Assembly (NCBI RefSeq): GCF_016889425.1
Contig: NZ_CP069513.1
Coordinates: forward strand, 1,178,001 to 1,242,000
Direction of reading: 5' to 3'
DNA length: 64,000 bases
Source: Corynebacterium amycolatum
Lineage (GTDB): Bacteria > Actinomycetota > Actinomycetes > Mycobacteriales > Mycobacteriaceae
Part shown: in pieces, positions 40,198 through 52,951 of the stretch
Layout of the letters: each line of letters begins with the position of its first letter
How positions within the stretch are numbered: position 1 is the stretch's first letter
Notes under the pieces: generated by a model
What the model saw: the letters and a program-made list of their open reading frames with translations, nothing else
What the model was told of the DNA's origin: nothing
Database searches by the model: none
Program-made: the position numbers and the translations under genes

Positions 40198-40397
40198 GGT
40201 TTACAGAGAGTAAGGCTTGCAACGGGAGATTAGCCGAGAATCATAGGTTCTTATGGTTCGCAGAGTCCCCAGGTTGTAGCGAAACTGGCTATGACCTGGG
40301 GATTGGTCTTTGTTGGGGGTGCCGTGCTACAGTTACATCTCGTTGGCCGGAGAGGTCAGCACCCGCTGTGAGTGCTTGTAAAAGCCAGGACAGTTGA

Positions 40398-40474
40398 CGC
40401 GGGGTGGAGCAGCTCGGTAGCTCGCTGGGCTCATAACCCAGAGGTCGTAGGTTCGAATCCTGCCCCCGCTACCA
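40398..40474 (+). tRNA. Initiator tRNA-Met (CAT), CCA encoded
   Basis: A 77-base tRNA with CGCGGGG acceptor 5' strand, anticodon loop CTCATAA flanked by GGG/CCC (the three G-C pairs of initiator tRNAs), T-arm TAGGTTCGAATCCT and encoded ACCA. Positions 1 and 72 do not form a Watson-Crick pair, as expected for formyl-Met tRNA. Its 3' part from 40435 is repeated at 52241, which marks it as the integration target of the element downstream. Confidence 0.97.
40435..40469 (+). repeat. Putative attL in the tRNA-fMet 3' half
   Basis: A 35-base stretch (from AACCCAGAGGTCGT to GCCCCCGC) that recurs at 52241-52275 with 33 of 35 identities. The two differences fall on opposite sides of the T-arm stem and exchange one base pair for another. 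Confidence 0.8.
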
Positions 40475-40478
40475 ACTT

Positions 40479-40516
40479 CCAAGCCCCTACCAGGAGAAAC
40501 ACTGGTAGGGGCTTTA
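40479..40516 (+). terminator. Terminator after tRNA-fMet
   Basis: AAGCCCCTACCAG and CTGGTAGGGGCTT flank a short loop and are followed by TAGTTATTT. A related hairpin follows the right-hand repeat at 52286, so the duplicated region seems to include the terminator. Confidence 0.85.
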
Positions 40517-40574
40517 GTTATTTCTCTTAAGGCGCACGTCCTGGGACTCAAATCGGGACTTTAGCGATGGCATT

Positions 40575-40617
40575 TTGTCACTTAAGCCGGTTTGGAAGTG
40601 ATGGGGTTAAGTGACAA
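40575..40617. repeat. 11-base inverted repeat inside the left end of the element
   Basis: TTGTCACTTAA at 40575-40585 and its exact complement TTAAGTGACAA at 40607-40617 are separated by 21 bases. The 290 bases from 40517 to 40807 have no convincing gene, only a startless minus-strand frame ending near 40680. The repeat could be a recombinase arm site or a regulator site. Confidence 0.45.
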
Positions 40618-40807
40618 TTTTCGATTTTGTGACCTTGGATGACTGTGTCGTTTTGAGGAGTCGTCTGCACGGATTTCAGAAGTCCTCTGTACTATCGCCA
40701 TCCACTCCGGAGAGGCCGCGGGCGTTCGTCCACTTCATCTGGAACGCGATTCGACAGAGCGCATTCAATACGATGGTCTTTTTCTCCCTGCGAAGGATGG
40801 GGGCAGT

Positions 40808-41212
40808 TTAGGGTGCCAGGGTGTTGACCAGATCGAGGAATTCCTCAGCGTAGGCAATTTGCTTGCGTAGCTTTTCGTAGCGGGTGCGCGTCTCCTCACG
40901 AATGTCGGCAAGGGTGGCCTTGGCATTACTCCGTGCCTGCTGTGCGGTATCACTGTCCTGCCCGCCATCTGAACTATGAAGAATCTCCGCAGCTTCCAGG
41001 AATTCCCGCATCTGATCCAGAGTAAACCCCAGCGGTTTCATCCGTCGCACCAGCAAAACACGACGTACATCAGCCTCACTATAAAGCCTGAACCCACCAG
41101 GGCTACGCCCCGATGGGGTAATCAGGCCGACGTTGTCATAATAACGCAAGGTGGGAATCGACAACCCCGTCTGGTCAACGACCTCGCCGATCTTGAAATT
41201 ACTGTTTTGCAT
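40808..41212 (-). CDS. MerR family transcriptional regulator
   Basis: A 134-residue protein. The winged helix-turn-helix is FKIGEVVDQTGLSIPTLRYYDNVGLITPSGRSPGGFRLYSEADVRRV, followed by a long dimerization helix and a C-terminal coiled coil. It contains no cysteine, so it is not a Cys-coordinated metal sensor. It is divergent from the SulP gene and probably controls it by twisting the promoter between them. It lies within the integrated element. Confidence 0.9.
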   Translation of the reverse strand: MQNSNFKIGEVVDQTGLSIPTLRYYDNVGLITPSGRSPGGFRLYSEADVRRVLLVRRMKPLGFTLDQMREFLEAAEILHSSDGGQDSDTAQQARSNAKATLADIREETRTRYEKLRKQIAYAEEFLDLVNTLAP

Positions 41213-41305
41213 TGCCTGTTCTCCTTCACGGTGATGTTGCCCACGGGTTCCTGTGCCTGGGTTGGCGGTTGAGTAAAACTCCCGCTACCATGACCACCAT
41301 CACCA

Positions 41306-41327
41306 AACCTAAAGTTACTAGAGGGTT
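41306..41327. promoter_or_regulatory. Possible MerR-type operator
   Basis: AACCTAAAGT and ACTAGAGGGTT form an imperfect dyad in the divergent MerR-SulP region, 55 bases before the SulP start. MerR proteins bind dyads lying in an extended spacer between -35 and -10. The match is modest. Confidence 0.35.
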
Positions 41328-41381
41328 GGATTCCTTTCGGGCGTTCGCCCAGTTACCTATCCCCTCAAAGATTGGACATCT

Positions 41382-42941
41382 ATGACTGAAACTAGCACGG
41401 CGGCCCCCCGCCCCCTCCTGAGTCCAGACGGCGCTGATGCCCCTACCGGGATCATCGCATCCTTCCGTTACGCATTTTCTTCCCCCGCCCGTATCCGTAT
41501 AGAGATTCTGGCCGGACTGGCGGTATCCCTGGCGCTGATCCCTGAGGCCATTGCCTTTTCCATCCTTGCCGGTGTTGACCCAGCCATGGGTCTGTTTTCC
41601 TCGGTAGTCATGGCCATTGCGATCGCCTTTACCGGTGGCCGCTCGGCAATGATCACCGGCGCCACCGGGGCTATTGCCCTAGTCATTGCTCCTGTGGCGC
41701 GTGGTTACGGGATGGATTATTTCATCGCCACCGTCCTGTTGGGCGGTGTCCTACAAATCGTGCTCGGCGCCCTCGGTGTGGCGAAACTTCAGCGTTTTAT
41801 CCCCCGATCGGTGATGCTGGGTTTCGTCAATGCACTGGGCATTATGATTTTCACCGCCCAACTCGAACACCTCATTGATGTGCCTTGGATAGTCTACCCA
41901 CTCGTCGGCTTGGGTGTGGTGATCATGATTTTCTTCCCCAAGCTCACCAGTGTGATCCCCGCCCCGCTGGTCACGATTATCGTGCTCACCGGTTTGGTCA
42001 TTGCCGCCGGTTTGACTGTCCCGACGGTCTCGGACATGGGCAAGATGCCGGAGACCTTACCGTCCCTGTTTATTCCGAACGTGCCGTGGACGTTGGAGAC
42101 CCTGCAGATCATCGCGCCTTATGCCCTGGCCATGGCCGTGGTCGGTCTCATGGAATCGTTGATGACCGCCAAGCTCGTCGATGACATCACCGACACTCAT
42201 TCCGATAAAACTCGTGAATCCTGGGGACAGGGGGTGGCTAATATTGCCTCCGGTTTCTTCGGCGGCATGGGTGGCTGCGCGATGATCGGTCAAACCATGA
42301 TCAACGTCCGCGAATCCGGGGCACGTACCCGCCTATCCACCCTGTTAGCCGGTGTGTTCCTGCTGGTCCTGGTCCTGGCACTGGGCGACATCGTTGGCAT
42401 GATCCCGATGGCTGCGCTGGTGGCAATCATGATCATGGTCTCGGTCGGCACCATCGACTGGCACTCGGTGCATCCACGCACCCTTAAACTCATGCCGGTC
42501 TCTGAGACCATTGTTATGGCCGTGACGATTATTGCCACCCTAGCCACCAGCAACCTGGCCATTGGTGTGGTGTTGGGTGTGGTCACCGCGATGATCATGT
42601 TCGCCCGTCGGATGGCACATATCGCTTCCATTGAAAAGGTCTCCGAGATCGACGGCGACGGCGATGGCGAGATTGATACTCGTACCTACCGGGTGCATGG
42701 CCAGTTGTTTTGGGCATCAAGCAATGACCTGGTTTATCGCTTTGATTACACCGATTCTGCCCGTCATATCACTATTGATCTCACTGAGGCGGAGATCTGG
42801 GATGCCTCCACGGTCGCGACCTTTGACGCGATTACGCAGAAGTTCCAGGACAGAGGCAAAACCGTGTCCATTATCGGGCTCGACGGTCCCAGTCAGGACC
42901 GGCTGAACCGCCTGTCTGGCCGGCTTGGCACCGGCCACTAA
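41382..42941 (+). CDS. SulP family anion transporter with STAS domain
   Basis: A 519-residue protein. It has about eleven TM helices (GLAVSLALIPEAIAFSILAGVDPAMGLFSSVV near the start; MESLMTAKLVDDITDTHSDKTRESWGQGVANIASGFFGGMGGCAMIGQTMINVRESG is the SulP signature region). A C-terminal STAS domain follows (about 420-515; LFWASSNDLVYRF, ITIDLTEAEIWDASTVATFDAI). It carries sulfate, bicarbonate or similar anions. Together with the divergent MerR gene it looks like accessory cargo. A terminator at 42968 closes it. Confidence 0.93.
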   Translation: MTETSTAAPRPLLSPDGADAPTGIIASFRYAFSSPARIRIEILAGLAVSLALIPEAIAFSILAGVDPAMGLFSSVVMAIAIAFTGGRSAMITGATGAIALVIAPVARGYGMDYFIATVLLGGVLQIVLGALGVAKLQRFIPRSVMLGFVNALGIMIFTAQLEHLIDVPWIVYPLVGLGVVIMIFFPKLTSVIPAPLVTIIVLTGLVIAAGLTVPTVSDMGKMPETLPSLFIPNVPWTLETLQIIAPYALAMAVVGLMESLMTAKLVDDITDTHSDKTRESWGQGVANIASGFFGGMGGCAMIGQTMINVRESGARTRLSTLLAGVFLLVLVLALGDIVGMIPMAALVAIMIMVSVGTIDWHSVHPRTLKLMPVSETIVMAVTIIATLATSNLAIGVVLGVVTAMIMFARRMAHIASIEKVSEIDGDGDGEIDTRTYRVHGQLFWASSNDLVYRFDYTDSARHITIDLTEAEIWDASTVATFDAITQKFQDRGKTVSIIGLDGPSQDRLNRLSGRLGTGH

Positions 42942-42967
42942 CATCCCCCGACTCGAGCACATCGACT

Positions 42968-43000
42968 TGGCGCCCCAACTTATAACCGGGGCGCCAGTTT
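42968..43000 (+). terminator. Terminator after SulP
   Basis: TGGCGCCCC and GGGGCGCCA make a 9-base perfect stem, followed by GTTTATT. It lies 27 bases past the SulP stop. Confidence 0.85.
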
Positions 43001-43003
43001 ATT

Positions 43004-43020
43004 GGTGCTGTTGCAAAGTT
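43004..43020. repeat. Lone IS6-family-like terminal inverted repeat
   Basis: GGTGCTGTTGCAAAGTT closely resembles the GG..CTGTTGCAAA ends of IS6-family elements such as IS26 and IS6100. No transposase and no inverted partner were seen in the element, so it is a relic of an insertion or recombination between the SulP cargo and the mobilization genes. Confidence 0.6.
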
Positions 43021-43044
43021 GGGGCATAGGAAGAGCATAAAAGA

Positions 43045-43068
43045 AGCGTAGCGGTTAACCGCTACGCT
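43045..43068 (-). terminator. Perfect palindrome ending the mobilization operon
   Basis: AGCGTAGCGG, loop TTAA, CCGCTACGCT. On the minus strand it is followed by TCTTTTATGC. It lies 42 bases past the last minus-strand gene and so works as its terminator. Confidence 0.75.
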
Positions 43069-43110
43069 GTGTTGTGGGGATTTTTACTTTTTACGGTGCA
43101 CGTGTTCTAG

Positions 43111-44145
43111 TTAGTGGTTCGTTTCTTTCCTCGGGTGATTGCGACGGTATTCCTCGACTAAGTGAGCAATACCCGGCGCAGCCTGGGACAACATCCAGGT
43201 CATAAGCGCTATAAGAACCCCTATGACGATAAGTGTTAACGCCAACCAGCCCAGTGTTGGGCCGATGCCGTTGGCCTCCTGGACGTGACCCCACAAGGCA
43301 GACACGCCGTCGGGTATGCCGAGCATACTTAGCAGCCCGTTCCCCAAGGCTCCGACAGCAACGAGTGCGATAGCAACGAAGAGAACACTGGCTGCAATCC
43401 ACGAGGCAGACATGCAGGCCTTAATAAAGTTCGTGTTCGACTTTTCCATGTCGTCGTTGTACTTTTTGCGCTCTGCACGTATCTTCTCCAGCAGCTTTTC
43501 GTTGGACTCCTTCTCCTGGAGCAGGGCGCTGCGAGCCTTCTTAGATGCTTCTGCTGCCTTGTGCAGGCTTTCGGACTCTTTCGACATTGCCTCAGATACA
43601 GCTACTTCTACCAGCGGTTCCAGGCTAGAAGTCAGGCTCGAAGTCATCTGAGCGTTCAGGCTCTGGGCTACTGCTTGGCTGGAATCCTTGTCGAGATGGA
43701 TGGGGCTTTCGGCTGCTTTGAGTACCAGCTGTTGCATCCTTGTCAGACGCGACATCTGCTCGCTTATCTCGATTAGGTACCCTTTTACCCCCTCCAGGCC
43801 GTTGGGCAGATCCTCGATGTTCCTTATCAGCCCGGTGATCATCTGCTGCACTTCCATCATCGTTACTTGGAAGTGACTGCTGCTCACGTAGTTCTTGTTT
43901 GCGGCGAGATTGCTTTTTACGTTCCTTAATTCGCTTTCCGCTTGCGTCAACCTCGTCGAGAAGTCGCTGGGCAGAGAACTGAGAATGTCCCCTGTATTCT
44001 CCGGCAGACTCTTCAGTTTCTCCTGCAGCGTCTTGATAGCCTTCTCCGCCTTGTCCAGGCGTGGGCTGAGAACCTTCAAGACGCTGTCCATCTTGCCTTT
44101 CGCCGCTGCTTGGGCTAGCTTCGTCATCTCGGTCACTGACACCAT
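43111..44145 (-). CDS. Coiled-coil membrane protein, MobB-like
   Basis: A 344-residue protein. It is mostly helical: coiled-coil heptads run from about 10 to 240, then two strong TM helices (about 252-278, ASWIAASVLFVAIALVAVGALGNGLLSML, and about 300-325, GWLALTLIVIGVLIALMTWML), and a basic C-terminus. Start ATG at 44145 has a strong AGGAGGT. Its first 521 bases overlap the 3' part of the relaxase gene in another frame. Nested or overlapping MobB genes with membrane segments are known from ColE1 and RSF1010-type plasmids. I infer a role in relaxosome-membrane docking. No sequence family was recognised. Confidence 0.72.
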   Translation of the reverse strand: MVSVTEMTKLAQAAAKGKMDSVLKVLSPRLDKAEKAIKTLQEKLKSLPENTGDILSSLPSDFSTRLTQAESELRNVKSNLAANKNYVSSSHFQVTMMEVQQMITGLIRNIEDLPNGLEGVKGYLIEISEQMSRLTRMQQLVLKAAESPIHLDKDSSQAVAQSLNAQMTSSLTSSLEPLVEVAVSEAMSKESESLHKAAEASKKARSALLQEKESNEKLLEKIRAERKKYNDDMEKSNTNFIKACMSASWIAASVLFVAIALVAVGALGNGLLSMLGIPDGVSALWGHVQEANGIGPTLGWLALTLIVIGVLIALMTWMLSQAAPGIAHLVEEYRRNHPRKETNH

Positions 44146-45235
44146 GATTGAATACCTCCTGGTTGTTATAGTTTTCTTCCTCCTCGTCATCGAGAAGGCT
44201 GGAGCCGTATTTCGCCTCCAGGTCGTCATCGGTTGAATTGGCTTGAAGTGCTGCAAGCTGCCGCGCAAGAAGGGCTGATTGGGCCTCGTTAACGCGTTCG
44301 GTCACACCCTCTAGCGAGTAGCTGCGGCCCAATTTTGAGCCAGCTTTAGCTGCTTTACGCTTTCGAGTACGTCCGGCCTTCGTGGTGTTCGTGAAGTAGG
44401 CATCCTCGCCGTCGTCGTCGACCAGGGCCACGGTTAGCGACTCACCCTCGGTTTTTGAGTTGGGCTGCACTTTTAGAGACAGGTTGTATTTGCCAGCAAT
44501 CTCTACTGCCTTCGCCAGTGGGTCGTCAGCATCTGCCACCTGTTTATCCGCGCACAGCTCATCCATGCGCTTGCGGGCAAAATCAGCCCACGTGGCTGCG
44601 GTCAGCTCATCCACGCCCAGGCCCGTCGAGTCTGTGGACTTGCCCTCCTTGCGTGCCCTGCGCTCAGCAGGAAGCAGCGATATTTCCGGCTCTCGCTCCA
44701 GGACACGCATCCCCAAATCGCGCATCAGCTCGTCGTTGATATTGCGCAGCTTGTACCAGTTGCGCATATCCCGAGGTGCAGCCTTCTTTGTCTGCGTATC
44801 GTGGTTGGCAAAGACGATATGGTTGTGGACACAGCCGCTTTTACTGTCGGTGTGCGTAGCCACGGTAAACGGAACTCCCGTGCCCTGCGTCAGCCGCATC
44901 GCCAGCTCTGAGCCAGCCGCATTAGCCCGAGCTACATCGGCCGGGTTATCCTTATCCAGCTCGTCTTTAGCCCACGATTGGATATAAATAATTGCTTCGT
45001 CAGTGCGCTGAGCCGGAGCATATCGCTCCATTTCTTCCACACTGGCTTCCATGAAGTCCACACCCGACCAACGGCCAGCCGTAGCCTCCGGAGAAAACGA
45101 TTCAGCGTTAGGTTGAACCGTGCATAAAGCATCGGCTCGCACCTCACCCTTGCGGGCATTGTCTGCCGTTCCATAGACGGCGTAGACCGTTGCCGCGCGG
45201 ATATTCTGGCTGTAGTTAATCTTGATTGTGGACAA
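43625..45235 (-). CDS. mobA: Relaxase/mobilization nuclease MobA
   Basis: A 536-residue protein. The N-terminal relaxase domain (1-190) has a candidate nicking Tyr among KINYSQNIRAATVYAVYG, a motif II-like DEAIIYIQSWAKDELD, and the metal-binding motif III HTDSKSGCVHNHIVFANHD. The C-terminal third (about 340-536) is hydrophilic, low in complexity and rich in Ser, Gly, Gln and Arg. It overlaps the start of the MobB-like gene. TTG start overlaps the mobC end by 20 bases and is preceded by GAGGTGAAGGA. It nicks oriT and leads the strand during mobilization. Confidence 0.88.
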   Translation of the reverse strand: MSTIKINYSQNIRAATVYAVYGTADNARKGEVRADALCTVQPNAESFSPEATAGRWSGVDFMEASVEEMERYAPAQRTDEAIIYIQSWAKDELDKDNPADVARANAAGSELAMRLTQGTGVPFTVATHTDSKSGCVHNHIVFANHDTQTKKAAPRDMRNWYKLRNINDELMRDLGMRVLEREPEISLLPAERRARKEGKSTDSTGLGVDELTAATWADFARKRMDELCADKQVADADDPLAKAVEIAGKYNLSLKVQPNSKTEGESLTVALVDDDGEDAYFTNTTKAGRTRKRKAAKAGSKLGRSYSLEGVTERVNEAQSALLARQLAALQANSTDDDLEAKYGSSLLDDEEEENYNNQEVFNHGVSDRDDEASPSSGERQDGQRLEGSQPTPGQGGEGYQDAAGETEESAGEYRGHSQFSAQRLLDEVDASGKRIKERKKQSRRKQELREQQSLPSNDDGSAADDHRADKEHRGSAQRPGGGKRVPNRDKRADVASDKDATAGTQSSRKPHPSRQGFQPSSSPEPERSDDFEPDF

Positions 45236-45584
45236 AGTCCTTCACCTCTTTGCGAAGAGAAGAAACCTCGGAGCCAATGCTTTCTACAGCCTCAGACACG
45301 GGGGCCACGCCGTCGATATTCGCGCGGCGAGCCAACTGGTTTAGATTGACGCCAATCCGCCGCAGTTGGTCGTTCATCTCGTCCAGGCGGCGCAGCGTGT
45401 CCGGGGCCAAACGCTTTTGCGTCAGCACGCTCTCCTCCTCCGCGAGGACATAGAGAGCTTCCCGGAACACGACGGCCTTTTGCACCCCTACGACCCGTGC
45501 GACCTCCTCGACAAATCGGTCTAAATCCTTATCGAGGCGCACGGTTGTACGCGAATATGTCGAGAACTTGTCTCGCATATCCAC
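45216..45584 (-). CDS. mobC: MobC relaxosome accessory protein
   Basis: A 122-residue protein. A ribbon-helix-helix start (YSRTTVRLDKDLDRFVEEVARVVGVQKAVVFREAL) is followed by the MobC signature LDEMNDQLRRIGVNLNQLARRANID. It helps the relaxase open the oriT. The oriT is expected upstream, where hairpin-rich DNA is seen (45600-45880). Confidence 0.87.
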   Translation of the reverse strand: MDMRDKFSTYSRTTVRLDKDLDRFVEEVARVVGVQKAVVFREALYVLAEEESVLTQKRLAPDTLRRLDEMNDQLRRIGVNLNQLARRANIDGVAPVSEAVESIGSEVSSLRKEVKDFVHNQD

Positions 45585-45599
45585 CTCCTACTTATCGTG

Positions 45600-45880
45600 C
45601 TTACTGTGGCAGGGTGGCCCCGACTGCTGATGCAGCCAGGGCCACAGTCTGTTTGTAAGGGTCACGCTTCTCCGGTGTCGGCCCCCTGAATCTGCGGGGC
45701 AGATTCAGGCGTACTCGCCACCGTCAAAGACGGCCCTCACAAACAGGCGGCAAACAGGCGGCAGGCGGCAAACAGGCGGCCAGCAAGCCACTCGGGCACC
45801 TCCGGTGCCTCGTGGCGCTGGCGAGGGAGATTCTCTCCCTCGACCCTCTGGCCCTACGCTTGCAGACCATAAGGGTCTGC
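45600..45880. other. Hairpin-rich, repeat-rich region, candidate oriT
   Basis: The region upstream of mobC packs several perfect inverted repeats. CCTGAATCTGC/GCAGATTCAGG lies at 45685-45709, GGCACC/GGTGCC at 45795-45809, CGAGGGAGA/TCTCCCTCG at 45822-45842 and GCAGACC/GGTCTGC near 45862-45880. CAAACAGGCGGC is repeated three times between about 45737 and 45780. This is typical of a nic region with accessory sites. The nick site itself is not identifiable by eye. Confidence 0.55.
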
Positions 45881-46246
45881 GTGCTCCGGGCCTGCGGGGG
45901 ATTCCTCTGACTCTGTAGAGTCCTCGGAATCGACTTCGAAGCCTTTATCGGCTCCTTCGTCCGCCCCGCGATGTGCGCTCTCGTGTTCCTCGGACGCTTC
46001 ACAGGAGGTTTCCTCCCGTATACCGATTTCTGCGAACAGTTCCCTTACGGAACCGCCGCGAAATTTGGACCACTTGCTTGAAGGCTCATAAGCGCAGGCG
46101 TAGAGAACTTCGCCTAATTGACGCTTAAACTCCTCAACCTTCTTGGCTTCTTCGGCTTCTTTTTGCTCCCGCTCCTGGCGGAGAGCTTCAATCTTTTTTA
46201 CCGACGAAGCGGTCTGAGACTTCGTAATCATAGTTCTGGTTCCCAT
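45854..46246 (-). CDS. Hypothetical coiled-coil protein of the element
   Basis: 130 residues. It begins with a Lys/Glu-rich coiled coil (KKIEALRQEREQKEAEEAKKVEEFKRQLGEVLYACAYE), followed by SKWSKFRGGSVRELFAEIGI and an acidic tail of Glu, Asp and Ser. It overlaps the upstream gene by 19 bases. An in-frame ATG at 46231 is possible. I do not recognise it. Its position between polB and mobC suggests a DNA-transfer or replication accessory. Confidence 0.6.
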   Translation of the reverse strand: MGTRTMITKSQTASSVKKIEALRQEREQKEAEEAKKVEEFKRQLGEVLYACAYEPSSKWSKFRGGSVRELFAEIGIREETSCEASEEHESAHRGADEGADKGFEVDSEDSTESEESPAGPEHADPYGLQA

Positions 46247-46701
46247 CCTTTACTGGTGTCTTTTTCTTCTGGTTCATTCTGGAAAAGTGGGGTGAATCGC
46301 GGGTTTTTGACCCGAGGGACACGAGGCTTCTTTTCCCGCGGCGGCTGCGGTGGGTAGCCACCTTGATTCTGCTTTTTCCGCCGCGACTGAGCGCGCTCAT
46401 CGAGGGTTTGCTCTAGCTGATCAAGCTCAGCGTCAACCTTTTCTCCCTCCGCTTTAAGCTGCTCCAAAGACACTTCTTCTTTTGGGGCGTGCTGGGCAAA
46501 ATCGTCCAGAATCTCCTGGACTCGGTTGGAACGACGGATAATATCGGCGCGGTCTAGACCAACCAAACCGGCGATAAGCCCCTTCGCAGACTCCTCCGCG
46601 GCGTACCTGCTCTCCTCCATTTCCGCGCCTGTTTTAGCTCCACTGCGCGGCGCTCGTGGGGCGCTCGGCATCCGTGGTGCTCGGGGCGATTGTGGCTCCA
46701 T
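46228..46701 (-). CDS. Hypothetical Pro/Arg-rich coiled-coil protein of the element
   Basis: 157 residues. A Pro/Arg/Ala-rich N-terminus (about 1-22) is followed by a helical core with AAEESAKGLIAGLVGLDRADIIRRSNRVQEILDDFAQ, a coiled coil (LEQLKAEGEKVDAELDQLEQTLDERAQ) and a basic Pro-rich tail. ATG at 46701 has a very strong AAGGAGG. I do not recognise it. It is the first gene after polB in the minus-strand array. Confidence 0.68.
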   Translation of the reverse strand: MEPQSPRAPRMPSAPRAPRSGAKTGAEMEESRYAAEESAKGLIAGLVGLDRADIIRRSNRVQEILDDFAQHAPKEEVSLEQLKAEGEKVDAELDQLEQTLDERAQSRRKKQNQGGYPPQPPREKKPRVPRVKNPRFTPLFQNEPEEKDTSKGWEPEL

Positions 46702-46737
46702 ATGTTCCTCCTTATCTTGGGTTGCGGTGTATTGGTG

Positions 46738-46768
46738 CCATCGGGAACTCGGTCTAAGCACCCGATGG
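46738..46768. other. Hairpin between polB and the downstream small genes
   Basis: CCATCGGG and CCCGATGG form a perfect 8-base stem in the 182-base gap after polB. There is no T-run, so it may pause or process the transcript rather than end it. Confidence 0.4.
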
Positions 46769-46883
46769 TTCAAGACTTAGCTGGGGTGCTGTTGCTTGCA
46801 TGGTTAGCGTCTCTGTGACGATAAAAGTGCCTATAGGAGGGCCGCGAGAAAGCTTCATACCAAACCGACCAGGGGGAGGGGTG

Positions 46884-49800
46884 CTAGACATAGCCATCAC
46901 CGCGATTCAGCTCATCGGCAAAGGCACGAACAGCATCCATATCGGCATCGCGTAGCACCGTCGAACGCCGAACCTTCTTGCTCATGTGATCCCACTGCGC
47001 CCGGGTGAATTCACCCATCCCCAAAGAGGACAACCAACCCACCTTCTGAGCCACGGAAACGCGAACAGCCAAACGGTCAACGACGACAAGACCAGCCTTA
47101 TGCGCGGCAACGAGTTCGGTGAGTAGGGCACTGTCAGCCGTACGGATACGACGACCCCGAGCAGACTCAAAACGCTTAAACCAGGTCTCCCAATCATGAC
47201 CCGTGCGCAGACACCCAGTAGGACGGTCAACACCTGTGGTCCCATACCGAACCAACTGCATGTGACCAGCGATCCCACGTGCATGCTTATAGTCGTCGAC
47301 TGAGTCCCACGCGCAAGTGTCGAACCCCGCCATTTCGTTGCCGTCAATCACATCAACCCGGAGCGTGCCACGTAGAGGCTGCCGTTTTAGGTCAAAGTCC
47401 ACCGTTGAGACCTCAGGCGTGCGATCCACCGGGTGGAAGTCCAACCGGTTTACGGACCGCGACAACTCCCGAAATGTTGGGAAAGACGTGTAGGGGTTAG
47501 GTATCTTTCCCCGGCGTGAAAGAGCGGTATCGCGAAACCAGCGACGCTCCGCGACGGTCCCACGTTCAACCTCCTCAGGAACTTTCAACCCAGCCTTAGC
47601 GAGCACACCGTGTTCCAGCAAGGACACATTGCCACGCGTCGAGAAATTCACTAGATCGTCCTGGTAGTGCTTGATCTCCCAGACCGTCGGATCACCTACC
47701 AACGCACGACGAGCGGCACGGAACACATTCGCGATGCCAAAGCAATCAAAGTGCTCAATCTCTTCAACAGGCGTGATGAAGCCGTCAGTCGTGACAGACA
47801 GAATCGGAATCGTATTGGCCATCGCCAGAAGAAGAGCGCGAACAAGCGACGTTGTCATCGACGCGTGATAGGGAGAGGTTACGGACGACCCACCAATAGA
47901 CTCCATCTCCTCAGCCCATGCACCCCACCCGTTACGCTCGGAGACGTCCTGGGCCAGCTTCCCGTAGACCGAGTTTGTCGCAACCTTGACGGTCTGCTCT
48001 TCCAGCGACCCCTTGCCGAAGATCTTCTTCGCAGTCGCACGGTCTTCAACCATCTGTCGGAGGGCGAAGCGCAGTGATCGGGACGGAGTACTATCAGACT
48101 GCATGCGCAACCTCATGCGGTAGCCAATCTGAACACGCACCGTCGCCCCCAGCTTCAACGCAAGGTACAACTCAGGTCCAGCGCACCAAGCACCATGAAA
48201 CCCGTCATACCCCCCAACATCGTCACCTTGCGCGGCTCCAGCACCGTCAGACGTTCGTGGATATAACACGCAGTCACCGACGACCACCGGCAAGCAAGGC
48301 GCAACAACATCATCCGGGAAATTCCAACTCACATAGGCAACTAACGGGGTGATGGGACCTAACGGAAAGTCGTCCAGTGTAAGTACCCGGTCCTTCACAA
48401 CCTCCTCGATACAACCGCCCACATAATCCACATCAATCACCGATGCCATCGCAGATGGGTACGCAGATTGGATATCGTGATCGAAGGTCGGGTAAGGGTG
48501 GTGACCAGGAGACAGACAACTGTTCCAGCCTCCGTGAAACGCCATTTTCCACGCAGTGTGGGATTGATTGGCATCGCCGTCCACGGGTACCAACTCTCGT
48601 GTGGTGTAATACGAAAGTTGGTCATGGTCTAAAAACGGTTCAGGGTCCGTCAACCGCACGAGACCGCGAAAGTTGATGAGGAAGTCCTTCACCACCTTGT
48701 CGCCCATGTAGCGCATGATTCCGTCGCGGACAGCACTGGCACCCGCACCCGAAAGGGTGACAGGCGGAACGATGTTGAGACCCCACAGCATCGCCAGATA
48801 CTCAACAACGATGACCGCGTCATTCACCCCATATTCGAGGAACGACGTCAGATCGTCACGACGCATTGAGGTCATATTCTCGATTGAGGAACCAACATCA
48901 AGCTTAGGAACACCGCAAACATCGCCAAGAGCAGCGAGACTCTTATGACCGGGTGCAGCCTGACACATCGTGTCACGAACGGTCACAGAGAACGGCAACC
49001 AGCGATAGCTGTTGGAGCCTTTGCCAGACTTGCGCATGAAGCGGGCAGGTTGCAGCGAAACTAAGCCCCCCGAAGCAGAGGTCACGCGGCGGAGGATGTC
49101 ATAATGTTTTTCCCCACCATTGCGCTGCTCGGGAGGGCGCCGAAAAGCGGTCAGATCGGCGTTGCCGAAATGACACGCCAGGACGACGGCAATGCGAGCC
49201 TTGAACGCCGCATCTCGCGTGGCGGAGTAGTCAAATTTTCCCCGAGGGTTGAGTTTCCTTACATCGCGGACGAGCACGCCACGAGGATCGATAGGCTCCC
49301 GAGAGGGTGACAGGACATGCAGACCGCCTGCAAGACTGACGATGTAGAGAGCATCCTCAAGGTAGATGCGATCACCCGCCAGAGGCAACACAACCACCTG
49401 TACGAGAACACCATCATCGAGAGCATCAGTACAGGCGAACTGATAGCTATCGATGACGCGCTTAGCGGGGTCATCTTCGCGGTAGGTGAACTCAGTATCA
49501 AACCCGATCACTTGAGCCCGGCGACCGCCACTACCCATCGACCTCACAGTTGGTAGCTGGCCGAAACTCTTAACATCGACACCGGCATCAACCCCTGCAA
49601 CCGCAGCGGCTTCCACCGCTGCTGCTGCTGCGGAGTCACGGTGGCCGGAGTCACGATGGCCGGACTCTCCGGTCCGGCCATTCTGCCTCTCCCCTAGGGG
49701 ATTTTGGCCTGAAACGACTTTAGGGTCTTGACCAGCAGGAACGTCCGTAGAACTGCCTGAAATCGTGGCCAAGGTCTCCGAGACCTTAGCCACAGATCGA

Positions 49801-49994
49801 GGTTTACGACGTACCAAAACGGTGAAGTACGACGGGTCAGAACGCCCAGGAACGTCGACGGCAGTGTCGACGAGGCGTGATTGCCACTCGGTGCCATTCA
49901 CGTCAAGCTCGATGAGTTCATGCTCATGACGCACCGTGTCGGGCGCGTCCTTGGGGGAGATCTCTATGCTCCACGCCTCGTTCGCTGTCGTCAT
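46884..49994 (-). CDS. Family B DNA polymerase, piPolB-like
   Basis: 1036 residues. The 3'-5' exonuclease domain has Exo I GFDTEFT (D166, E168), a likely Exo II HFGNADLTAF (D280) and Exo III YGVND (Y388, D392). The polymerase domain has motif A DHDIQSAYPSAM (D507), motif B KVATNSVYGK (K670, N674, Y677) and motif C SVTTDGF (D737). In motif C the first Asp of the usual DTD is Thr. About 155 residues separate motifs A and B, room for the TPR2-type subdomain of protein-primed and primer-independent enzymes. The first 150 residues are low-complexity and Ala/Gly/Ser-rich. ATGA overlap with the excisionase gene. Likely replicates the element. Confidence 0.88.
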   Translation of the reverse strand: MTTANEAWSIEISPKDAPDTVRHEHELIELDVNGTEWQSRLVDTAVDVPGRSDPSYFTVLVRRKPRSVAKVSETLATISGSSTDVPAGQDPKVVSGQNPLGERQNGRTGESGHRDSGHRDSAAAAAVEAAAVAGVDAGVDVKSFGQLPTVRSMGSGGRRAQVIGFDTEFTYREDDPAKRVIDSYQFACTDALDDGVLVQVVVLPLAGDRIYLEDALYIVSLAGGLHVLSPSREPIDPRGVLVRDVRKLNPRGKFDYSATRDAAFKARIAVVLACHFGNADLTAFRRPPEQRNGGEKHYDILRRVTSASGGLVSLQPARFMRKSGKGSNSYRWLPFSVTVRDTMCQAAPGHKSLAALGDVCGVPKLDVGSSIENMTSMRRDDLTSFLEYGVNDAVIVVEYLAMLWGLNIVPPVTLSGAGASAVRDGIMRYMGDKVVKDFLINFRGLVRLTDPEPFLDHDQLSYYTTRELVPVDGDANQSHTAWKMAFHGGWNSCLSPGHHPYPTFDHDIQSAYPSAMASVIDVDYVGGCIEEVVKDRVLTLDDFPLGPITPLVAYVSWNFPDDVVAPCLPVVVGDCVLYPRTSDGAGAAQGDDVGGYDGFHGAWCAGPELYLALKLGATVRVQIGYRMRLRMQSDSTPSRSLRFALRQMVEDRATAKKIFGKGSLEEQTVKVATNSVYGKLAQDVSERNGWGAWAEEMESIGGSSVTSPYHASMTTSLVRALLLAMANTIPILSVTTDGFITPVEEIEHFDCFGIANVFRAARRALVGDPTVWEIKHYQDDLVNFSTRGNVSLLEHGVLAKAGLKVPEEVERGTVAERRWFRDTALSRRGKIPNPYTSFPTFRELSRSVNRLDFHPVDRTPEVSTVDFDLKRQPLRGTLRVDVIDGNEMAGFDTCAWDSVDDYKHARGIAGHMQLVRYGTTGVDRPTGCLRTGHDWETWFKRFESARGRRIRTADSALLTELVAAHKAGLVVVDRLAVRVSVAQKVGWLSSLGMGEFTRAQWDHMSKKVRRSTVLRDADMDAVRAFADELNRGDGYV

Positions 49995-50218
49995 GGCTTC
50001 TCACCACCGACAACATGCTCATCTAGCCACGCCTCAATATCAGCGATTCTGTAGACGACGAGGTTGGTACCCACGCTGGCGTATCTGGGCCCTTTGCCCT
50101 GAACACGCCAGTTGTTGAGAGTTTGAGGGGCAATTCCGATCAGGGATGCCGCTACCGAACTTTTAACCGCAATAGGCTCGGCATGATCGACCAGTTTTAA
50201 ATTAGAAACACCTTTCAA
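49991..50218 (-). CDS. Excisionase-like helix-turn-helix protein
   Basis: 75 residues: AVKSSVAASLIGIAPQTLNNWRVQGKGPRYASVGTNLVVYRIADIEAWLDEHV is the winged helix-turn-helix of the AlpA/excisionase group (DNA helix around QTLNNWR, then the wing). The start is TTG at 50218, which is uncertain. Its stop overlaps the polB start by four bases, so the two are translationally coupled. Joint control of excision and polymerase synthesis is therefore plausible. Confidence 0.8.
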   Translation of the reverse strand: MKGVSNLKLVDHAEPIAVKSSVAASLIGIAPQTLNNWRVQGKGPRYASVGTNLVVYRIADIEAWLDEHVVGGEKP

Positions 50219-50240
50219 GGTTTGCTCCAGACATGCTGAA

Positions 50241-50277
50241 AGGGCCCCGGCCTAGCGGTTATCCGCTTTGGGGGCCT
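50241..50277 (-). other. Hairpin leader upstream of the excisionase-polB genes
   Basis: An outer stem (AGGGCCCC against GGGGGCCT, one mismatch) encloses an inner AGCGG-TTAT-CCGCT stem. It lies in the 141 bases between the unknown gene at 50360 and the excisionase start. It could be a terminator or an attenuator for the polB transcript. Confidence 0.5.
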
Positions 50278-50359
50278 GCATATCCGAGTTGCAAACCTTG
50301 GGTTCTTATTGTACCCGGTGCCTCGGTGGCCAACCGTCGCAGGTACGGCTGGTTATATT

Positions 50360-50845
50360 TTAGCCTACTTGTGAGGGAAAATCAAAGACCGGCGGAAACA
50401 TCGTAGCCACGACACTGTCCGGTACAGGGTCGATAAGATCCATCGTCAGTCCTTCACCTGCGGCGAAGCGTCGTCCTGCGTTAGGCCGATAAAAGGTGAA
50501 CGGCAACGTTCGATCAGCTTCGTTCTCCAGAAACTCGAGTCGTGCCTGGAGGTGTTTGCGGACAGCGTGCAGACGCGGGTGTCGCTTCTGACGACCTTTC
50601 GTATCATTTTTCACAATGGGGTCCAGATACCTTAGTTCACGAGCTACCGCGCGGATTTCACAGTAGGTTTCAAGGGCGGTAAGCAAGAGCTGTGTGACCT
50701 CCTCGCGGGAAAGTGGGGGAGTGAACAATTCGCGAGCGTCAACATAAAGCGGGTGATTATCGTCAACCAACGTGCACAACACTTCCTGGCGTCTGCGCGC
50801 GACGTCATCGGTAGACCAAATTGGAAGACGTTCTGAAGGATCCAT
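50360..50845 (-). CDS. Hypothetical protein of the element
   Basis: 161 residues. It is helical and charged, with LSREEVTQLLLTALETYCEIRAVARELRYLDPIVKND, then KRHPRLHAVRKHLQARLEFLENEADRTLPFTFYRP and a hydrophobic C-terminus (VVATMFPPVFDFPSQ). No signal peptide or TM. I do not recognise it. It is the first gene of the minus-strand array and is divergent from the integrase with 56 bases between starts. A regulator or replication accessory is possible, but there is no motif to support either. Confidence 0.65.
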   Translation of the reverse strand: MDPSERLPIWSTDDVARRRQEVLCTLVDDNHPLYVDARELFTPPLSREEVTQLLLTALETYCEIRAVARELRYLDPIVKNDTKGRQKRHPRLHAVRKHLQARLEFLENEADRTLPFTFYRPNAGRRFAAGEGLTMDLIDPVPDSVVATMFPPVFDFPSQVG

Positions 50846-50888
50846 ACCAGCAATGATAACAAATTCGAACCTATTGCAAAAGTGGGTC

Positions 50889-50902
50889 TATAGTGGTGTG
50901 TA
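50889..50902 (+). promoter_or_regulatory. -10-like hexamer at a likely leaderless integrase start
   Basis: TATAGT at 50889-50894 sits 7 bases before the ATG at 50902, and no ribosome site is present. Transcription starting at or next to the ATG would give a leaderless mRNA, which is common in corynebacteria. No clear -35 is visible. Confidence 0.4.
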
Positions 50903-52134
50903 TGTCCAAGCAAATACGTGCCGCCAGAACGAAACTAAGCCTTGGGGAAGATTCCATCGACCGCGTCGTTGATGCTTTACCGCCGCGAGGTCCATACGAA
51001 GCGAAAATCACGGTCCGACTATGGGACGGAACGACTTACCGCCCGACAATCCGGGCAAGGACAAAGGGGGAATTCCGGCGAATTGCCGTCGAGAAGCGGG
51101 ATAGCAAGCTCAACTCGACGTCGACCAATTGGGATAAGAGCAAGAACTTCTCGGCGTTCATTACCGACGTCTCTAAGCCGGCCATCCGGGCGGCACGTCT
51201 GCGACCGAACACGCGCGCCCGGTATGAGCTCGCATTAAAGCAGGCCGAAGCACAGCTAGGAAAACACGCCATTGGCGAAGCTGTGAAATTCCGAACTCTC
51301 GAACACGCATTGCAGGCCATCGCCACCGCAAACGGGTCGGAATCTGCACGGCAGGCCCGCACCGTCGTGAGCAAGTACATTCTGGATCAGCTCATCCGCG
51401 AGGGTGTTATCGACCACAACCCGTTACGCGGAATCAGCATCGACCTCGGCGAGGTCAAGAAGGGCAATAAACCACAAGGTGGTCACGCCCTGACGAACGC
51501 CCAATACGACGCCGTTGTAGACCATCTCATTGCACGCGATACCGCCAGACCGTTACCACCGGGCACGGACAGACGAGCAAGCTCCATCGCAAAACATGAC
51601 AACGTGGTCGCGCTGGCACTACTGCAAGCGGGGACGGGACTTCGCATCTCCGAGGCACTGGCAGTGACGAGGTATTCTGTAAAAGTCGCTAATGGGCAGA
51701 TCGCTATCAGCATTACATCTGAGCAATCTAAAACGCACAGAGACCGTTCTATCCCGTTCCTGGACAAGCGTGTCGAAAAGTTCTGGTTAAACCGGCTCGA
51801 CGGACTAGAAACGACCGATCCACTGATCCCTTCGCCAGGAGACAAGAAGGCGCACTGGCGCACCGACAACGCCGTGAAAGCGTCAGCGGCTCTGTTTAAA
51901 GATGTTGGCGCGCAGCTCCAGGACAACCACATCGCTTTAATGAGATCCCATGACTGGCGCACGGTGCTCAATAACCGGGCCATCGCGCGAGGGGTACCCG
52001 CCCAGGTGCGTGCAGCCTATTTCGGGCATGACGTCGACGTGAACGCGCGCAACTACACGGATTGGACTGATGTAGACGCTATGCGGGGCGCCTTGAATCT
52101 CGGTGAAGAAAGTGGGACTCAAAACGGGACTTAA
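50902..52134 (+). CDS. int: Tyrosine recombinase (integrase)
   Basis: About 410 residues. An N-terminal arm-binding and core-binding region (1-190) precedes the catalytic domain. Catalytic residues, numbered from the ATG at 50902, are R248 (TGLRISE), K277 (SEQSKTHRDR), H350 and R353 (SHDWRTVLNN), H376 (FGHDVD) and Y385 (ARNYTDW). It drives insertion into and, with the excisionase, removal from the tRNA site. GTG codons at 50893 and 50896 are alternative starts. The right tRNA repeat lies 106 bases beyond the stop, the usual place for an integrase. Confidence 0.93.
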   Translation: MSKQIRAARTKLSLGEDSIDRVVDALPPRGPYEAKITVRLWDGTTYRPTIRARTKGEFRRIAVEKRDSKLNSTSTNWDKSKNFSAFITDVSKPAIRAARLRPNTRARYELALKQAEAQLGKHAIGEAVKFRTLEHALQAIATANGSESARQARTVVSKYILDQLIREGVIDHNPLRGISIDLGEVKKGNKPQGGHALTNAQYDAVVDHLIARDTARPLPPGTDRRASSIAKHDNVVALALLQAGTGLRISEALAVTRYSVKVANGQIAISITSEQSKTHRDRSIPFLDKRVEKFWLNRLDGLETTDPLIPSPGDKKAHWRTDNAVKASAALFKDVGAQLQDNHIALMRSHDWRTVLNNRAIARGVPAQVRAAYFGHDVDVNARNYTDWTDVDAMRGALNLGEESGTQNGT

Positions 52135-52240
52135 GAGTCGGTAATCTGCGGTAAAGACCAGTAGGCGCCAGTATACTGATACCTCTCTAAACAGCAGGTA
52201 AAAGGGCAATAACTGCAGGTGGCTCGAACATGAGGGTGAG

Positions 52241-52275
52241 AACCCAGAGGTCGTTGGTTCGAATCCAGCCCCCGC
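52241..52275 (+). repeat. Putative attR, tRNA-fMet 3' remnant
   Basis: A 35-base copy of the tRNA-fMet 3' region (33/35 identical to 40435-40469). The T-arm reads TTGG...CCAG where the intact tRNA has TAGG...CCTG, a compensatory pair change. Sequence to its left no longer folds as a tRNA, and the 3' end reads CACTA rather than TACCA. This is the expected junction with the displaced original tRNA 3' end. Confidence 0.8.
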
Positions 52276-52285
52276 CACTAAGAAG

Positions 52286-52319
52286 AGACCCCTACCGGTG
52301 TAAACGCTGGTAGGGGTCT
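52286..52319 (+). terminator. Terminator after attR
   Basis: AGACCCCTACC and GGTAGGGGTCT form an 11-base stem followed by TCGTTATT. It resembles the hairpin after the intact tRNA, so it is probably the original tRNA terminator. Confidence 0.8.
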
Positions 52320-52951
52320 TCGTTATTCGGGGGTCAAATCACCGCTTGGGGCTTAAGCCGTTGGGCAGTCGTTGGGTCTGACGAACTCGCGCACTTCACA
52401 ACCGGGCATTGAAGGACGGTCGTCAAAATGCAGCGTGAGGCGCTGCTCGATTAGTCGGCCTGAAGGTACTTAGCTTGAGGAGTTGCTGGGTTGATTCTGG
52501 CCGATTTGCCTCAGCTCATGTACGCGCTGCTAGCTTTCGGTTTCACATATCGATGAGTTATTCACTTATGGATACGCTGGAGCGCATCGATGGGTGAATC
52601 ATGCATCGATAAGTGAGCGCAATACTGGCAAAACGGTGGGCAGACAGCTGACAGACAGCTGCCAGACAGGCTTGGACTCCCACGGTGGGCTCGAAATGTG
52701 GGCGGATGTGGAGTGACTCGTTCCTTTTTTTCGCCCCTTCATAAAGAATTCTACGAAGTCTTGGCTTTCGATTTCTTCAGCCAGATCATTGGCGGAATCA
52801 ACAGAGCCAGGCCACCGATAAGTGTGACCTCACCGAATCGTCGATTCTTAGAAAAATTGGAATAAAACCATAGGATTATCTCACGATTGTACGTCAGTTA
52901 CCGAGAGATTTTGTGGCTTCGGTCACTATTAAGTTCCTCGCATGCACGATA
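52320..52951. other. Gene-poor region right of the element
   Basis: No confident gene is present. A startless minus-strand frame, 52751-52897, encodes a short hydrophobic tail (VTLIGGLALLIPPMIWLKKSKAKTS) and may be a remnant. An inverted repeat CACTTATGGAT/ATCGATAAGTG (52563-52615, 10/11) contains further ATCGAT copies. AGACAGCTG is repeated near 52641-52665. This could be decayed DNA left by earlier insertions at the tRNA. Confidence 0.5.

Follow-up and report, generated by a model that had tools for sequence, protein, structure and literature searches.

According to PMC9710591, pipolins are defined by piPolB, the primer-independent family-B DNA polymerase, range in size from 10 to 40 kb and include examples from Actinobacteria; plasmidic pipolins, whose hosts include Staphylococcus epidermidis and Limosilactobacillus fermentum, carry relaxases and have often lost the integrase. 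The biological role of piPolB is described there as unclear, with a putative role in damage tolerance or repair being mentioned. In Escherichia coli, as described in PMC7385651, pipolins lie in a tRNA-Leu gene, encode tyrosine-type recombinases and have attachment (att) repeats that overlap the tRNA. Here we describe an 11.8-kb island in the tRNA-fMet gene of Corynebacterium amycolatum (one-contig genome, 2.47 Mb), located in a 64,000-nucleotide (nt) stretch (G000:C1:1178001-1242000), hereafter the window, to which all coordinates refer unless a locus is named. Among named records, those with near copies of the window belong to Corynebacterium. The island is very probably an integrative, mobilizable pipolin; an earlier note on this DNA had proposed a corynebacterial pipolin, and the polymerase, the att repeats in the tRNA and the tyrosine recombinase that such an element should have are all present.

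From left to right the island comprises a terminal arm, cargo genes for a MerR regulator and a SulP permease, an IS6/IS240-type end, a coiled-coil/membrane open reading frame (ORF), relaxase and MobC genes, two small ORFs, the polymerase gene (PolB), an HTH_17 gene, a 161-aa ORF and the integrase gene. It is a compact example: the genes for a self-synthesizing element’s polymerase, for its site-specific integration and for conjugative mobilization are all open here and are found again in other species, so that one can ask in a harmless Corynebacterium what the primer-independent polymerase is for. A literature search whose scope excluded the original 2017 paper and a survey from 2024 found no joint treatment of pipolins and Corynebacterium, so we make no claim that corynebacterial pipolins, or integrated pipolins that are mobilizable, are unreported; matches to pipolin combined with mobilizable and relaxase were, judged by their listing, off-subject.

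Plasmids pSE-12228-03 (NC_005006) and pLME300 (NC_004566), presumably those meant for the S. epidermidis and L. fermentum hosts, resemble the window element in carrying a piPolB-group polymerase with the motif C sequence VTTDG and a MOBP relaxase on one replicon. However, they are free circles, and no tyrosine integrase is listed in the stretches read, pSE-12228-03 carrying a recombinase-family protein. The integrated E. coli pipolins, as PMC7385651 describes them, share with the window element a polymerase and one or more tyrosine recombinases, flanked by att repeats that overlap a tRNA gene, but differ in the tRNA and in the host phylum, and the window element adds MobC and a relaxase. In Pseudosulfitobacter pseudonitzschiae plasmid P1 (L091) the order Int-PolB-MobC-relaxase is the same, with the integrase before and MobC/relaxase after the polymerase relative, but the plasmid is alphaproteobacterial and 276 kb in size, and its polymerase gene is split by IS66-type genes. 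Matches include 30 Pseudosulfitobacter plasmid records. On small Fusobacterium plasmids (L073, L092), a distant polymerase relative is accompanied by a separate gene for a replication initiation protein.

The Polymerase and Its Relatives

The polymerase gene (46884..49994, minus strand) encodes 1036 residues with Exo I–III and motifs A and B, in agreement with the family-B assignment in the earlier note, which left unremarked that motif C reads TTDG instead of the usual DTD. The enzyme shares the motif C sequence VTTDGF, a 45-residue B-to-T spacing and the TRG motif with Staphylococcus plasmid polymerases, which gave its best match among named plasmids; its identity to the pSE-12228-03 and pLME300 enzymes is 20–25%. 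The TRG motif varies: the window polymerase has STRG, P0107 and P0206 have TTRG, and the S. epidermidis enzyme has KTRG. In a tree built without E. coli piPolB, which we take to be the assayed member of the family, the window polymerase grouped with pipolin-type plasmid polymerases (support 100/99), and phi29, PRD1 and Pol II enzymes fell outside. Pfam gave no match for the polymerase and a PDB sequence search gave none either; PHROG_11768 (‘DNA polymerase’) matched at 6e-7. A search of the own genome with DNA_pol_B_2 (PF03175) returned no match, as did the controls, and is uninformative. Assignment to the piPolB group is supported by homology and the shared signature motifs, and by analogy with the family the enzyme may synthesize DNA without a primer.

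A match to the polymerase was found in 25 of 242 Corynebacterium genomes, and a class-level search of 394 genomes returned only the window’s own. These 25 comprise the window genome with its close copies (five), fragments or a decayed copy that were not fetched (five), and 15 loci fetched with 20 kb each. Near the polymerase, a relaxase homologue is present at 11 of these 15 loci, MobC at seven (one by a Pseudosulfitobacter MobC query only), the HTH gene at five and a window-type integrase at four. The earlier note had this pipolin adding a Mob module; the relaxase counts, and the relaxases of plasmidic pipolins given in PMC9710591, show that the Mob genes are not peculiar to this element.

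Attachment Sites and Integration History

The integration target is tRNA-fMet(cat) (40398..40474, plus strand; ARAGORN and Rfam tRNA), the initiator identity of which we take from a 1:72 mismatch and GGG/CCC in the anticodon stem. The island is bounded by a 48-nt direct repeat, 85% identical and spaced by 11,806 nt, identified by direct-repeat search and comparison with empty sites; its left copy (40428..40475, plus strand), with the core AACCCAGAGGTCGT, lies inside the tRNA, and its right copy spans 52234..52281 on the plus strand. The flanking tRNA repeats and the ends (40435 and 52275) given in the earlier note were right, the latter to within a few bases. The window’s nearest genomes, G069 (92% over a 1.8-kb query) and G034 (91%), have a different tRNA 3′ end, which is identical to window positions 52241–52282 at the right border (42 of 42), and the window tRNA region (40396–40480) has a 100% full-length match in at least 17 of 101 genomes searched. 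Since the right att thus equals the tRNA end of G069 and G034 and the window tRNA end is of the type of other congeners, the element probably brought its own tRNA end, the 3′ half from about 40436 being element-derived; most likely, the native end was displaced to the right border by the incoming one.

Comparison with a second species (G167) provides evidence for movement. The island is colinear there over 40396–52327 at 92.8% identity, whereas the left flank is 68% identical over 2.4 kb and the right flank gave no match to the window in the comparison. As the island is far more alike than the flank, it has moved as a unit between species. The precise empty site of the G167 backbone, running from left flank through tRNA-fMet to right flank, is observed at four of six fetched loci (G038, G158, G161 and G049), with an 88-nt overlap. 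In G037 the flanks run together for 90 nt and are followed by about 760 nt of other DNA, and the G022 locus is more diverged and interrupted. In both G069 and G034 a different 4.4-kb stretch, bounded by a second att copy (L064 13704–18252; L065), occupies the same tRNA-fMet; in G069 this stretch includes part of a relaxase gene of the TrwC type. The tRNA-fMet site is an integration hotspot.

The tyrosine integrase (50893..52134, plus strand; PF00589 3e-8, PHROG_1 9.6e-18), an enzyme also seen in the earlier note, retains the catalytic pattern RISE...HDWR...Y388. The 64-kb window holds just two copies of the paired motif GGGACT-N6-GGGACTT, one per island end: GGGACTCAAATCGGGACTTTAG at 40543..40564 (plus strand), in the left terminal arm, and GGGACTCAAAACGGGACTTAAG at 52114..52135 (plus strand), over the end of the integrase gene. 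G167 and G093 likewise have a pair at both ends; L062 and L071 show the right pair alone, their match not extending over the left arm. These pairs are putative integrase arm-type sites. The left terminal arm itself (40476..40603) is common to L068 and L069, though the adjoining cargo in L069 differs. The HTH_17 gene (49991..50218, minus strand) overlaps PolB by four nt, the ORF map (50218–49991) confirming the ATGA overlap described earlier. That its product is excisionase-like, as also proposed, agrees with PHROG_66 (5.8e-7), and PF12728 scored 24.7 bits, just below its 27-bit cut-off.

Mobilization Genes

The MOBP-type relaxase (MobA/VirD2 nuclease; 43625..45235, minus strand) matches PF03432 (9.4e-13) with HTD...HNH at residue 128, and is 27% identical to the pSE-12228-03 relaxase (E 2e-12), the match to the pLME300 relaxase having E 0.06. 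MobC (45216..45584, minus strand) matches PF05713 (1e-8). These families bear out two parts of the MobC/relaxase/MobB-like module proposed earlier; for the third, a coiled-coil/membrane protein (43111..44268, minus strand) with no family match, ‘MobB-like’ describes its position overlapping the relaxase. The intergenic region upstream of mobC (45585..45853) is a candidate origin of transfer (oriT). It contains CAGGCGGCAAACAGGCGG twice in tandem, and inverted repeats were recognized by eye. No secretion family was found among the scanned ORFs (ten in Pfam, nine in NCBIfam), save a chance-level T2SSF match (E 0.16) to the 181-aa ORF, the 161-aa ORF lying outside the Pfam scan. An integrase and a relaxase without recognised type IV secretion genes are what characterizes an integrative mobilizable element, and by analogy the island would be transferred between cells.

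Proposed Mechanism and Alternatives

The borders, the empty sites in one host backbone, the interspecies spread, the enzyme families and the relationship of the polymerase are direct observations; primer-free synthesis, control of excision and relaxosome action would follow from the families concerned. We propose that a circular form of the element is joined to the 3′ half of tRNA-fMet through recombination at the core by the tyrosine integrase; the incoming att would thereby restore the tRNA 3′ end and shift the native one to the right border. The HTH protein would serve as excisionase and be co-translated with the polymerase. Once excised, the circle may be copied by the piPolB-type polymerase, initiation included, with neither a separate primase nor a terminal protein, and MobC and the MOBP relaxase would nick oriT, enabling a helper conjugative element to carry the circle to another cell. 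Both refuting checks named in the earlier note were carried as far as possible and the pipolin reading survived them: the polymerase did not group with protein-primed or Pol II enzymes, and precise empty sites exist in the G167 backbone. Several observations weigh against this proposal. Empty sites are found in the G167 backbone, but none was found in the window’s own backbone, the nearest genomes (G069 and G034) being occupied by the other 4.4-kb stretch. OriT is located only as a candidate. Branches in the polymerase tree are very long for the outgroup and several in-group members, and the STRG of the window polymerase departs from KTRG, the motif of pipolin polymerases.

In favour of a self-synthesizing element of the phi29 or casposon-like kind, with a terminal protein and linear copies, are the nearest solved fold of the window polymerase, which is phi29 DNA polymerase, its TPR1/TPR2-sized spacings and the three small ORFs with no assigned function. 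However, the island ends in direct att repeats at a tRNA, not in the terminal inverted repeats of a protein-primed linear element; motif C (TTDG versus DTD in phi29-type enzymes) and the B-to-T spacing differ from those of phi29 and PRD1; 261 residues follow the aligned KxY site in the window enzyme compared with 71 in phi29-type polymerases; and relatives of the polymerase reside on circular plasmids. Neither the window polymerase nor that of S. epidermidis matched a phage record at E 1e-5, and none of 57 pattern-matching stretches in viral contigs encodes a relative. Phi29-type systems use a terminal protein, and, as the earlier note had stated, none was assigned among the polymerase neighbours (Pfam, PHROG and NCBIfam), where a diverged one is possible. 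We regard protein priming as very improbable.

The polymerase might instead serve host repair or damage tolerance within a plain integrative mobilizable element, a role in line with that mentioned in PMC9710591 and with the retention of Exo I–III. That sister elements pair it with int, mob and xis-like genes, and that homologues occur on small plasmids, fits copying of the element better and makes a repair function possible but doubtful. Alternatively, the island could be a decayed, immobile fossil of an integration, as rearrangement is evident from the IS6-type remnant at 43004, the exchange of cargo and a missing neighbour gene. Such decay is distinctly unlikely given that the core genes are open, the catalytic residues of integrase and relaxase are present, the integrase is 96–99% identical in four sister elements and the island recurs in a distant backbone.

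A Candidate −1 Frameshift in Sister Polymerases

Aside from the pipolin assignment itself, the sister polymerases display an unusual feature. In seven of the 25 polymerase-matching genomes, at loci L007 (G029), L008 (G015), L013 (G150), L017 (G143), L018 (G109), L098 (G567) and L116 (G478), the open frame is interrupted at query residue 806/807 and resumes in the −1 frame. The break is homologous to residue 806 of the window polymerase (about 47579), where the gene is fused. Programmed −1 frameshifting is marked by an X_XXY_YYZ heptamer, a spacer of 5–9 nt, a stem and conservation of both frames, and similar slippery heptamers work in other bacterial genes. The heptamer, spacer, stem and conservation of both frames are all observed in these relatives. 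The heptamer C_CCA_AAA is present in all seven frame-broken genes, with the 0-frame stop as the second codon after it. As G143, G109 and G478 are alike over the printed stretch, the seven represent five distinct DNA sequences, in all of which a stem begins 7 nt after the heptamer. Over ten pairs of this stem, 48 of 50 cells are paired, with two pairs changed on both sides, compared with 18–62% pairing in slid control versions; in eight fused genes, the window included, the best fold lacks this helix. The −1-frame part is 49–64% identical to the window C-terminus and is under purifying selection close to that on the front part, with pN 0.01 versus pS 0.12 in the shifted part of the close pair G029/G015. 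Among 120 listed database homologues, known here as proteins only, seven end within nine residues of the break with PK followed by A, T or Q. In a front-part tree (60 rows, 11 labelled for the break, G567 left out) the label needs four changes, at least three of them forced by well-supported branches, so a single gain followed by plain retention does not account for it.

These observations suggest that several corynebacterial pipolin polymerases are likely expressed by programmed −1 ribosomal frameshifting at codon 806, through C_CCA_AAA, a 7-nt spacer and a conserved stem of 8–12 bp, to give two enzymes. The predicted products would be a short form that stops shortly behind the TRG motif and a long one that keeps the conserved C-terminal ~225 residues; modelled on their own, residues 806–1036 of the window polymerase reached a pLDDT of 65.5 and matched nothing in the PDB below E 0.001. 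Several findings argue against such a frameshift or weaken the case for it. Five of the seven genomes show other damage, with further splits or frame changes in G015, G150, G478 and G567 and the front part on another contig in G109. In other pairs of shifted genes, pN/pS is 0.43–0.58 in the shifted part versus 0.37–0.53 in the front part, with pS near saturation. Fold energies alone do not settle the question, since good folds, of other shapes, are also obtained for two of eight fused controls (z −2.66 and −3.00), and G567 has z −0.95 on 75 nt and −2.11 on 84 nt. In shuffles, 56 of 500 reach the count of double-changed pairs and seven of 500 the covariation score. Chance or decay as the cause of the shared break was considered and is disfavoured by the use of one codon, one heptamer and one stem, and by G029 and G143, in which the polymerase gene has no other break.

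The exact 19-nt slip pattern gave two matches (G143 and G478) in 401 family genomes; G109 and G150 were not listed in the sample drawn, and the pattern does not fit the variants in G029, G015 and G567. Literature searches, judged by their listings, found no work joining programmed ribosomal frameshifting with a family-B DNA polymerase, other wordings being equally fruitless. If real, recoding of this kind would be unusual for a family-B polymerase and would point to the C-terminal region as a regulated part; a mobile element would adjust, at the level of translation, the ratio between its two polymerase forms, with the window element as a fused version.

Cargo and Neighbouring Genes

Three ORFs of the island have no assigned family: those of 130 aa (45854..46246), 181 aa (46228..46773; 98–99% conserved in four sister elements) and 161 aa (50360..50845), all on the minus strand. 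The cargo comprises a MerR-family regulator (40808..41212, minus strand; PF13411 2e-15) and a SulP-type anion permease with a STAS domain (41382..42941, plus strand; PF00916 8.5e-49). PADLOC returned a single match, of MerR to mad1, which we take as general MerR similarity. To the right of the island, a glutamate-symporter-like membrane protein gene of G069 (recognized by eye; L064 12204–13541) is absent from the window, where only its ends match (52743–52837).

In G093, 43032–52281 is kept at 89.7% identity beside the same tRNA and left arm, and the place of MerR/SulP is taken by a 147-aa ORF and a gene for an IS240-type transposase. Because this region is kept while the MerR/SulP genes are exchanged, the element core is int, the 161-aa ORF, the HTH gene, PolB, the two small ORFs, MobC, the relaxase and the coiled ORF, the remainder being cargo. 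The sequence at 43004..43034 is an end-like remnant of an IS6/IS240-type insertion sequence, an assignment based on the end sequence typical of such elements and on the neighbouring DDE_Tnp_IS240 gene in L069. An IS6/IS240-type end or transposase gene lies at the core/cargo junction in the window (43004–43034), in L069 (15879–16544) and in L062 (17002–17415), which suggests that an element of this type drives the exchange of cargo.

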